From positions 1-37,900 of the forward strand of contig JAQUTD010000005.1 of the NCBI GenBank assembly GCA_028709955.1: a stretch of DNA of 37,900 nt, read 5' to 3'. Below the pieces are notes generated by a model that worked only from the letters and a program-made list of their open reading frames with translations, was not told where the DNA came from and did no database searches. Position 1 is the first letter of the stretch. Each line of letters starts with the position of its first letter. Shown in pieces: positions 5,898 through 8,955 of the stretch. The DNA comes from Bacteroidales bacterium. Lineage in GTDB: Bacteria; Bacteroidota; Bacteroidia; Bacteroidales; P3. A program made the translations under genes and the position numbers.

Positions 5898-5905
5898 TAC
5901 TTTTG
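5898..5905 (+). promoter_or_regulatory. Bacteroidetes -7 box upstream of the Cys-rich gene
   Basis: TACTTTTG fits TAnnTTTG. No TTG is placed at the expected 19-23 bp upstream, so only the -7 element is claimed. It lies about 110 bp before the Cys-rich gene, implying a long 5' leader. Confidence 0.45.
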
Positions 5906-6017
5906 CAGAATCAAGATATAAAGAAAATCTTTATATAAAAGAATGTAAGTTTTTAATATTAGGAGTGTCTTAACTCAGATAAATAATAAATAATTTATAA
6001 ACAAACACAAAAGAAAA

Positions 6018-6326
6018 ATGAAAAAATTAATCTTATTAGCATTTGCTTTCGCACTTGTTACTGCAACTACAGTTAGCGCACAAGAACCTCAAAAGAAAGA
6101 AGTTAAAAAAGAATGTTGTTCAAAAGATGGTAAGAAAGATGCTTCAAAGGCTTGTTGCGATAAAGATGGTAAGAAAGTAGCCAACCACGAATGCAGTAGT
6201 AAAGACGGAAAAAAACATGAGTGCTCAAACAAAAAAGACGGGAAAAAGCATGAGTGTACAAGCAACAAAGATGGTAAAAAACACGAATGTTGCTCAGATA
6301 AAGCAAAAGCAGAAGTAAAAAAATAA
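6018..6326 (+). CDS. Secreted Cys-rich DGKK-repeat protein
   Basis: A small exported protein of 102 aa. A signal peptide (residues 1 to about 21, ending VSAQ) precedes a hydrophilic mature part holding five KDGKK units at about 13, 13, 11 and 11 residue spacing. These are separated by Cys or Cys-Cys (C33/34, C46/47, C59, C69, C80, C91/92), and later units carry KKHEC. Nine Cys plus several His in ~70 residues suggest binding of soft metals such as Cu, Zn or Ni, or a periplasmic thiol buffer. This is inference; I recognise no named family. It sits directly upstream of the ECF sigma cassette and could be its target or a cassette member. The minus-strand ORF over it is a shadow. Confidence 0.85.
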   Translation: MKKLILLAFAFALVTATTVSAQEPQKKEVKKECCSKDGKKDASKACCDKDGKKVANHECSSKDGKKHECSNKKDGKKHECTSNKDGKKHECCSDKAKAEVKK

Positions 6327-6347
6327 ATTTTCTTTTAATCTGTCAGT

Positions 6348-6383
6348 ATAAAGCAGGGTATGATATTTCAAATCCTGCTTTAT
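6348..6383 (+). terminator. Possible hairpin terminator or attenuator before the sigma gene
   Basis: ATAAAGCAGG (6348-6357) pairs with CCTGCTTTAT (6374-6383) across a 16-nt loop. There is little T-run afterwards and the sigma factor ATG follows 10 nt later, so it may attenuate rather than end transcription. Confidence 0.45.
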
Positions 6384-6393
6384 CTTTAAGTTT

Positions 6394-6954
6394 ATGGACG
6401 ACATACAAATTGCAAAAGAAATATCCTTAGGTAATCAAAAAGTTTTTGAAGACTTCTTTAACCAACATAAATTGAAGGTTATGAATTTATGTTATGGAAT
6501 GACTCATAATAGAGATAGTGCAGAAGATTTAGTTCAAGATATTTTTTTAGAGATATATTCTTCTGCAAAATACTTTCAAGGTAAATCAAAACTTTCAACA
6601 TGGCTTTATAGGATTGCAGTAAATAAAACTATAAACTATCTAAGAAAAGAGAAAATCAAAAAGTTTTTTGTTAATGTAGATGATGCAAAACATTCGCTAC
6701 AAGCTGATTCAAGAGCTGATTTATCGCTTGAAGAAAAAGAAAAAATAAATATTTTGCATAAGGTTATTGATAAATTGCCGTCTAAACAAAAAAGTGCAAT
6801 AATTTTATTTATTTATGACGAATTACCTCAAAAAGAAATTGCAGAAATAATGAATTGTTCATTGGCATCTATTGAAGTTTTAATTCATAGAGCAAAAAAA
6901 TCAATAAAAAATAAAACAGACAAAATATATGGAAACGTTATTGAAAAAGGATAG
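6394..6954 (+). CDS. ECF-type RNA polymerase sigma factor
   Basis: A sigma-70 family ECF factor of 186 aa. Region 2 (about 20-90) contains RDSAEDLVQDIFLEIY and the STWLYRIAVNKTINYLRK segment. Region 4 (about 125-180) contains LPSKQKSAIILF and the helix-turn-helix QKEIAEIMNCSLASIEVLIHRAK. No extra C-terminal domain. The last 26 nt overlap the next gene, a small membrane protein, and a CnrX/Spy-like sensor follows. This order resembles sigma / anti-sigma / metal-sensor units such as CnrH/CnrY/CnrX, so regulation by envelope metal or stress is a reasonable inference. Confidence 0.93.
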   Translation: MDDIQIAKEISLGNQKVFEDFFNQHKLKVMNLCYGMTHNRDSAEDLVQDIFLEIYSSAKYFQGKSKLSTWLYRIAVNKTINYLRKEKIKKFFVNVDDAKHSLQADSRADLSLEEKEKINILHKVIDKLPSKQKSAIILFIYDELPQKEIAEIMNCSLASIEVLIHRAKKSIKNKTDKIYGNVIEKG

Positions 6955-7240
6955 AATTGAAGAAGTTAATCCTTATTTATTCCAAAAAATTCATTCTAAA
7001 ATAAATTATGAAGCATCATACTCTATACCAGTATGGAGTATGAATATTCTTAAATTAAGTATTTTCGCATTAGTATTATTGATGGGTTTCAACATTCATT
7101 CAACAATAAATTCAAAATCGGATAGCAATCAAATATCTGAAAGCAATTCCTACACAGAATTTATTGAAGATTATCACTTTGAAGCCTTATCAAGCCTATA
7201 TCCAGTTGAACTATTAAGTGAAAAAGTAGAAGATGAATAA
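6929..7240 (+). CDS. Small single-pass membrane protein, candidate anti-sigma factor
   Basis: A 103-aa protein with a short cytoplasmic N-terminus (about 1-35), one transmembrane segment (about 38-58, ILKLSIFALVLLMGFN) and a ~45-residue acidic periplasmic tail. No zinc-binding anti-sigma motif (HxxxCxxC) is visible. The assignment rests on position: it starts inside the ECF sigma gene (26-nt overlap) and its own stop overlaps the start of the putative sensor by 8 nt, so the three are translationally coupled. CnrY-like anti-sigma factors are similarly small and single-pass. Confidence 0.75.
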   Translation: METLLKKDRIEEVNPYLFQKIHSKINYEASYSIPVWSMNILKLSIFALVLLMGFNIHSTINSKSDSNQISESNSYTEFIEDYHFEALSSLYPVELLSEKVEDE

Positions 7241-7712
7241 AAAATATTTTATTGCATTAGTAGTAGTAGTTATTTCCCTTTTATTAGTGAATATATTCTT
7301 CTTGATTAATAATAAGGATTGCTCATGCAAACAAAACAAGAAACAAGATAAAGAAAATGTTAACTGCAACTGCTATGTTACAGAAAAACTTTCTTTAGAT
7401 AAAGAACAAGCTTATAAATATTCTTTAATAAAGAAAAAACATCAAACAATTGCATTAAAAGCAATTGATAGTTTGCACGTAAGTCAAGAATTACTTATGG
7501 ATTATCTTGCATCAAATTCAGATTCTGTTAAAATTGCCGAATTAGAAAACAAAATAACAGAGTCTCAAAAAATTCTTCTTCGTCATCATATTGAACAATA
7601 TCAAGACCTAAAGGCTATTCTTAAACCAGAACAAATGGATCAGATGAACAAACTATTTAAAAGTCTTTTCGTTTGCAAACCAAGTTGCGAGCACAATCAC
7701 AAAGAATATTGA
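7233..7712 (+). CDS. CnrX/Spy-like periplasmic metal or stress sensor
   Basis: A 159-aa protein anchored by an N-terminal membrane helix (about 5-27) with a mostly helical periplasmic domain. LSLDKEQ (53-59) and LKPEQ (130-134) resemble the LTxxQ motifs of the Spy/CpxP/CnrX (heavy-metal resistance) superfamily. Paired cysteines flank the helical core: CSC (30-32) and CNC (45-47) near the membrane, CKPSC (148-152) with HNH at the C-terminus. These are plausible metal ligands or redox-active thiols. As last gene of the sigma cassette it probably senses the signal that releases the sigma factor. Convergent with the next gene. Confidence 0.78.
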   Translation: MNKKYFIALVVVVISLLLVNIFFLINNKDCSCKQNKKQDKENVNCNCYVTEKLSLDKEQAYKYSLIKKKHQTIALKAIDSLHVSQELLMDYLASNSDSVKIAELENKITESQKILLRHHIEQYQDLKAILKPEQMDQMNKLFKSLFVCKPSCEHNHKEY

Positions 7713-7731: not shown

Positions 7732-8955
7732 TTATTCCTTTAAGCTATATAATCTAAACTTTGGATTGAGTTTAAGATATAAACCAAAAGAAAACTCTGC
7801 ATAATCAGAACTATATATTTCACCGTATCCTGTTCTGTATCCTGAGAAAGGAAAATAATAAAAACAATCTACTTCAAAACCTAAAGAATAATTCTTTTTC
7901 TTTTTATAAATATATTCAAGTTTAGAATGTATCATACTAATTTCATTAAAATACATATTTTCTGTTGCTAATGAAAGATTAATGAAATTAGGGGAGCCAA
8001 AAATTGATACAAAATCTTTGCTTTTCCAATAGGCAACACTTAGGTTTAAATTGTTAGAACTTATACTTAATTTTGGGTAAATTCCATTCCCTGATTCAAA
8101 AGGGATACTTGACCCAATATTTTGAATAAAACCAGCATAATAAATATCAAAACTAATATTATCTATTAATTTATCTATCTTATAATTTACTCCTATTCCT
8201 CCAGCATAATTAGTCCATGTTTGTAATAAATCAGCAGATAAAGTATCTATCTCCCCACCCTTATGTTGAGCTACAAATTGAAAAGGGAAATATATTTGAA
8301 ATTTACTATTGGGTTTTAAAATATTTGTTTTGGTAGAGTATCCAAATGAAAAAACTTCTTGATGGTTATCATTTTTATAAATAAAACTTTGCCAATTAAA
8401 CCAAAGATCTGAAATAAAGTATTTTGAATTGAACAAAAGCTGTATACCCGCCTCAGGATCTGAGCTTAAATTTAATTCCGAATTGTAGAGAGGAAGAATT
8501 AAATTGTGGTTATTATTAATATAAAGATTCCCAAAAACTAAGTTAAGATTTTCTATCAATTCAATTTGAGCTCTAAAAAAAGGTAGTAGATGAAATCCTT
8601 TCTGATAATCATCTCCTTTCCAAACAGGGATGTCTGTGTAAGACAAGCAAGGGTAAGAATTAGTCCCCCAAAAGTGGAGCAAACTAAAGCCAGCTTCTAA
8701 GTGAATATTCTGGTCTAATGAAAAAGACAGTTTTGGTATTATTCTAAAGCCAGGAAGAGTGTATCCACTAATTTTTTCTGAAGCAAATTCATTATCCTTA
8801 AAGAAGTTTAGATTTTCAATCTCTAAAAATATCTTGTTTACATCAAGAGAGTCAATACTTGGACTTTGATAAAAGAAATCTTCCTCCTGACCAAAACATG
8901 AAAGAGAAATAAAGACAACAATAATAAAAAACAAATGTCTAATTTTCTTTTTCAT
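7732..8955 (-). CDS. Exported beta-rich protein, probable outer-membrane barrel
   Basis: A 407-aa protein with a signal peptide (about 1-22, FISLSCFGQ) and many alternating hydrophobic/polar strands rich in aromatic and Asn/Ser residues, ending near an aromatic-rich segment (FSFGLYLKLNPKFRLYSL). This pattern fits a Bacteroidota outer-membrane beta-barrel, but I recognise no specific family. The Cys at the end of the leader (SLSCFGQ) could be read as a weak lipobox. Its start overlaps the 3' end of the upstream glycosyltransferase gene by 17 nt, so both are probably cotranscribed. Confidence 0.75.
   Translation of the reverse strand: MKKKIRHLFFIIVVFISLSCFGQEEDFFYQSPSIDSLDVNKIFLEIENLNFFKDNEFASEKISGYTLPGFRIIPKLSFSLDQNIHLEAGFSLLHFWGTNSYPCLSYTDIPVWKGDDYQKGFHLLPFFRAQIELIENLNLVFGNLYINNNHNLILPLYNSELNLSSDPEAGIQLLFNSKYFISDLWFNWQSFIYKNDNHQEVFSFGYSTKTNILKPNSKFQIYFPFQFVAQHKGGEIDTLSADLLQTWTNYAGGIGVNYKIDKLIDNISFDIYYAGFIQNIGSSIPFESGNGIYPKLSISSNNLNLSVAYWKSKDFVSIFGSPNFINLSLATENMYFNEISMIHSKLEYIYKKKKNYSLGFEVDCFYYFPFSGYRTGYGEIYSSDYAEFSFGLYLKLNPKFRLYSLKE

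Follow-up and report, generated by a model that had tools for sequence, protein, structure and literature searches.

The closest described counterparts of the locus analysed here are CnrYXH and NccYXH of Cupriavidus metallidurans, Ni/Co-sensing systems in which an ECF sigma factor is accompanied by a small, single-pass anti-sigma factor devoid of a zinc motif and by a membrane-anchored periplasmic sensor, together with a linked RND metal pump. CnrY, a zinc-free factor that wraps sigma with two helices, belongs to a different anti-sigma class from class I. Signalling proceeds from CnrX to CnrY to CnrH (PMC7689651, PMC4598750), and Met123 of CnrX is needed for it (PMC7689651). The zinc motif is missing from around half of the class I anti-sigma factors that sit in the membrane, and only ~6% of Bacteroidetes ECF sigma factors adjoin a recognised class I anti-sigma factor (PMC7406223).

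The window, the whole 37,900-nucleotide stretch of DNA that was analysed, derives from a 1.88 Mb Bacteroidales draft genome (G000) and contains a four-gene cassette with the same kinds of sigma factor and single-pass anti-sigma candidate and a sensor that shares the CnrX fold; only in some relatives is an RND metal pump linked as well. Unlike CnrYXH, the cassette places its sigma gene ahead of those for the anti-sigma factor and sensor rather than last, and opens with a gene for a secreted Cys-rich protein, followed by a hairpin (Table 1). The cassette shares the logic and sensor fold of CnrYXH, but differs in its ligand set and in the origin of its anti-sigma factor, and has an unusual Cys-rich secreted output conserved in position. 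We consider, with a probability of roughly 0.6, that it represents a CnrYXH-like periplasmic metal switch with a periplasmic metal buffer as its main product. Literature searches did not return a description of such a four-gene unit.

Cassette conservation and the secreted Cys/Lys-rich protein

All four genes predicted by an earlier, sequence-only reading of this DNA were recovered where it had placed them, in the order Cys-rich secreted protein, ECF sigma factor, single-pass protein and sensor. The sigma and single-pass genes overlap by 26 bases (6929 to 6954), and the single-pass and sensor genes by 8 bases (7233 to 7240). Beyond the sensor lies a convergent neighbour (7732-8955, minus strand) that matches the LpxZ family with 388 bits (cut-off 460) and is a relative of the lipid A deacylase LpxZ; its place beside the sensor is retained in several of the family's genera.

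Table 1. Features of the cassette, in window coordinates.
Feature	Position	Strand	Details
ECF-type promoter	5944..5972	+	TGTAAGTTT-N14-GTCTTA; ~45 bases before repeat-gene ATG
Repeat protein	6018..6326	+	102 aa with a signal peptide (end: SAQ), nine Cys and five KDGKK units; homologous or equivalent gene before sigma in 19/19 sensor-bearing family genomes
Terminator-like hairpin	6348..6383	+	ATAAAGCAGGGT / ATCCTGCTTTAT; in the 67-base repeat-sigma gap, ~10 bases before sigma ATG
ECF sigma factor	6394..6954	+	186 aa; Sigma70_r2 E 3.6e-18, Sigma70_r4_2 E 5e-15; TIGR02937 above cut-off
Single-pass anti-sigma candidate without zinc domain	6929..7240	+	103 aa; hhalign to zinc-type profile
Membrane-anchored CnrX-fold sensor	7233..7712	+	159 aa; N-linker Cys 30, 32, 45, 47; C-tail Cys 148, 152

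When 61 relatives of G000 were searched, the sensor was identified in each of the 10 remaining members of the genus, as well as in 8 further genomes of the family. When the neighbourhoods were read, each of the 19 sensor-bearing family genomes was found to carry a short gene for a secreted Cys/Lys-rich protein directly before sigma; in one (G009) a contig ends within sigma and divides the cassette. Sensor-less genomes of the family gave no repeat-protein match at E ≤ 1e-3, and weaker matches (E 0.001-0.1), located in long ORFs, were judged to reflect composition and set aside. Across 393 genomes of the order, the KDGKKHEC coding pattern occurs only at the repeat gene of the cassette. The proposed tie between repeat protein and cassette is thus borne out, and the finding that would have spoken against it, a repeat protein residing mostly away from such cassettes, is contradicted by the same 393 genomes. 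A contig scan yielded matches only in Bacteroidales MAGs, and a search of the cassette region against Rfam returned no match.

The repeat protein carries a signal peptide cleaved between TVSAQ and E, with no lipobox. Its mature form of 80 residues comprises 25 Lys (31%), 9 Cys and 4 His, a Cys content of about 11% compared with 1.44% in the remaining window proteins, and the five KDGKK units claimed for it lie at residues 36, 49, 62, 73 and 84. Comparison with three close relatives gave dN/dS values of 0.03-0.07, indicating a protein under purifying selection rather than a chance ORF. Within the family its sequence drifts from KDGKKHEC to DKKxCC, HKCTG and HKCSHDGKDHKC while retaining its richness in Cys, Lys and His, with Cys being the most regularly kept feature. 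As the sequence-only reading had suspected, the protein appears undescribed: neither Pfam nor NCBIfam has a model that it fits at threshold. It resembles metallothioneins and periplasmic Cys-rich metal-binding proteins in being small, Cys-rich and hydrophilic; it differs in being secreted and strongly Lys-rich, in matching no family, and in having its Cys mostly as single residues or CC at a spacing of 11-13 residues. For Gram-negative bacteria it offers a candidate for a protein that buffers metal in the periplasm.

Sensor fold, ligands and the anti-sigma candidate

An AlphaFold model of the sensor built from 23 relatives (pLDDT 82) comprises a membrane helix (residues 3-27), a disordered linker bearing Cys, and a four-helix hook. 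Searched against the PDB with Foldseek, its best 14 matches were all CnrX or NccX (E 0.01-0.05, probability 1.00), with TM-scores to the target of 0.54-0.75, mostly 0.7. A wider sensor profile matched NccX (1.7e-6), ZraP (1.9e-6), Spy (1.5e-5) and CnrX (2.5e-5), placing the sensor in the same superfamily as the LTXXQ/Metal_resist proteins Spy, CpxP and ZraP; among the 23 relatives, 12 match LTXXQ and 5 match Metal_resist (PF13801), the latter with E values no higher than 0.05, of which the best is 3.7e-11. Unlike those proteins, the sensor is membrane-anchored and encoded in a sigma operon. The window sensor itself falls below Pfam thresholds, and PF13801 matched neither it nor any other protein of its genome.

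The Ni/Co ligands of CnrX, in the established numbering H42, H46, E63, H119 and M123 (the last also in PMC7689651), align without gaps to N46, T50, K67, Q122 and L126 of the window sensor, which therefore keeps none of the five and has instead Cys-rich ends. Given that Met123 is required in CnrX and is replaced here by Leu, a different ligand set would have to operate if metal is sensed. Equivalents of H119 and M123 are kept in 0/22 family sensors; other Bacteroidales sensors retain the former in 49/87 cases and the latter in 18/87. The description of the sensor as CnrX-like consequently holds for fold and profile, but not for the metal-ligand set. The CxC and CxxxC pairs attributed to it were found as C30xC32, C45xC47 and C148xxxC152. 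Cys residues are present in the N-linker of 21/22 family sensors and in the C-tail of 22/22, whereas 45/87 other sensors have no Cys at either end.

Containing no Cys, the single-pass protein has no HxxxCxxC motif, and its searches against Pfam and NCBIfam gave no match at threshold. Its columns 5-68 aligned by hhalign to columns 48-119 of a profile of zinc-type Bacteroidales anti-sigma factors (probability 95.4, E 1.7e-8). Since the zinc domain is missing from this alignment, the protein is best described as a member of the zinc-type family minus that domain; judged from profile similarity, it is homologous to the HxxxCxxC anti-sigma factors of Bacteroidales and has lost the N-terminal zinc domain. 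It thus shares a homologous membrane helix and adjoining region with membrane-bound class I factors, but not their N-terminal HxxxCxxC domain, and differs from CnrY, to which no sequence match was found, in its relationship to zinc-type Bacteroidales factors. A low-confidence model predicts a helix at residues 15-29 and a long helix from residue 35, and a PDB search with anti-sigma profiles returned no CnrY, and RsiW only at E 0.15. The zinc motif is missing, as had been pointed out from the sequence, but this is not in itself unusual. Here the whole N-terminal domain is gone, and because zinc-less membrane anti-sigma factors are common, the protein represents a variant rather than an anomaly. 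Zinc-less versions were also detected elsewhere in the order (L091, L096, L147, L150, L151, L153, L156-L158 and L161). The cassette can be viewed as a recurrent alternative to the class I anti-sigma pairing, one whose sensor, promoter and output are defined. Inside the anti-sigma gene we also observed a terminator-like hairpin of 12 pairs (7016-7043, plus strand).

Promoter, candidate regulon and intergenic hairpin

In nine cassettes of the genus, the repeat gene, but not sigma, is preceded at a distance of 45-55 bases by the motif TGTAAGnTT-N14-GTCTTA; the window copy lies outside the coordinates covered by the sequence-only reading. An exact search across the genus produced 14 matches in 11 genomes, compared with a single match for the reversed control, nine of them at the cassette and three before an RND-pump operon. 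Allowing one mismatch gave 28 matches against 22 for the control, such that most single-mismatch matches are attributable to chance. Recurring TATAAG...GTCTTA and ...GCTCTTA matches were dropped, those inspected lying in coding regions, and a match at G004:C51 has no candidate gene. Similar sites stand ahead of the cassettes in other genera (L037, L039 and L041) and in a diverged genus member (L032); no recognisable promoter was found in G001 or in the diverged genera. In a scan for sigma-70 promoters, matches were no more frequent than in shuffled sequences. On the basis of its co-occurrence with the cassette, the motif is likely to be recognised by the cassette sigma factor, and it could be used in reporters.

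In three relatives (G002, G003 and G006) this promoter precedes an operon without a sigma gene, which encodes paralogues of the anti-sigma factor and the sensor, then a small Cys/His protein, and ends in a CusA/CzcA pump that scores 1164 bits with TIGR00914 (cut-off 701). The pump carries DFGLIVDGSVIIVES in TMH4, a mark of the CzcA type. As the operon has no sigma factor of its own, control by the cassette sigma is the simplest reading, and in some relatives the targets of that sigma factor probably include a CzcA-type efflux pump. The suggested link of the cassette to metal is in this way strengthened, through the operons of those three relatives; the genome of the window has no pump operon with the cassette promoter, and no RND metal efflux pump is linked to the cassette in the window. 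The small Cys/His-rich protein encoded between the paralogous sensor and the pump (L033-L035) gave no Pfam or NCBIfam match.

The motif, exact or with one mismatch, was also found before the gene for a secreted 243-aa protein in 6/9 genus orthologues, with scores of 19.6-24.3 compared with 18.5 for the best of 2000 shuffles. The protein (L177 1501-2333; G000:C129:23387-24216) has a type IX sorting tail, and its gene lies beside one for an Omp28-like lipoprotein. The CxxC motif of this lipoprotein would suit a thiol or redox switch, in which the Cys pairs of the sensor gain or lose disulfides in response to reactive oxygen, sulfide or electrophiles and the output serves as a sacrificial periplasmic thiol pool, as would the Cys that the sensor carries at either end, the many Cys of the output and the absent CnrX ligands. 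We nevertheless regard such a switch as fairly improbable, given that a metal efflux pump operon has the same promoter, that G001 keeps the whole unit with a sensor lacking any N-linker Cys, and that the characterised CnrX-type folds are metal sensors.

The gap between the repeat gene and sigma forms a stable hairpin in 15/15 cassettes (mean z -4.5), a feature absent from the sequence-only reading. Its stem is near-invariant within the genus and entirely different between genera, indicating that structure rather than sequence has been kept. The hairpin resembles an intrinsic terminator with an imperfect U-tract (TTTATCTTTAAGTTT), and may cause partial termination, resulting in an excess of repeat mRNA. 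Together with a Bacteroidetes-type -7 box recognised by eye upstream of the repeat gene (TACTTTTG, 5898-5905), it would also be in keeping with the repeat gene being an unrelated housekeeping gene that precedes the cassette by chance. This we consider very improbable, in view of the 19/19 linkage, the fact that sensor-less genomes of the family lack the repeat protein, and the position of the promoter motif before the repeat gene and not before sigma.

If the cassette is a metal switch, the sensor would use its Cys/His ends to bind a metal ion that is thiophilic or divalent, most likely one of the Zn/Cd/Co/Ni group, and the ensuing conformational change, transmitted via the membrane helices, would cause the anti-sigma factor to free sigma. 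The freed sigma would then transcribe the operon from the TGTAAGnTT-N14-GTCTTA promoter. Most transcripts are proposed to end at the hairpin after the first gene, so that the Cys-rich protein would be produced in excess, with a modest increase in sigma, anti-sigma and sensor. By buffering periplasmic metal, the Cys-rich protein would in turn reset the sensor, although it could instead have redox or envelope functions.

Related units across the Bacteroidales

The sensor profile matched in 150/393 genomes of the order. Most of the units identified consist of sigma, a zinc-type anti-sigma factor and the sensor, followed by a Spy-like protein. In others, a secreted protein that contains VDxNxxGICDN repeats and additional Cys is encoded ahead of sigma or downstream of the sensor; secreted proteins of this kind were noted next to CnrX-like sigma units at L126, L127, L130, L139, L141, L146, L151 and L156.

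The Spy-like LTXXQ protein that follows most such units might suggest that the window cassette too is an envelope-stress unit of the Spy/CpxP kind, its sensor monitoring misfolded or damaged envelope and its Lys-rich protein binding anionic envelope material instead of metal. The 31% Lys of the output (25/80) and the conserved synteny with the LpxZ relative could be read in the same way. We find this unlikely, and slightly more so than a thiol switch, because both the fold and the profile point to CnrX/NccX rather than to Spy and CpxP, because the family of the window has a Cys-rich output where the Spy-like one is absent, and because Cys is what that output keeps most regularly.

Returning to the metal switch, sensors in 63 classified units averaged 2.96 Cys beside Cys-containing outputs and 1.56 otherwise (Mann-Whitney p 0.002, Fisher p 0.0097), in statistics that ignore kinship and use a crude classification. 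This correlation agrees with a ligand type shared by sensor and output. Only one further RND pump was found near the order-wide units (L137, among 65 loci), indicating that the pump link is not general. As a tentative extension, which we hold to be somewhat short of an even chance, the Bacteroidales may harbour a large undescribed class of sigma-controlled periplasmic metal sponges: low-complexity, Cys-rich secreted proteins of unrelated sequence at the same gene position, overproduced from hairpin-attenuated, autoregulated operons whose CnrX-fold sensors have exchanged the Ni/Co site for Cys ligands matched to the output. The units offer a natural series of CnrX-fold sensors whose ligand set and output protein appear to have changed together.

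In another Bacteroidales family, a similar Cys/Lys-rich secreted protein was observed with no adjoining sigma cassette (L061 1486-1839, in G051); the gene that follows it looks YedF/DsrE-like.
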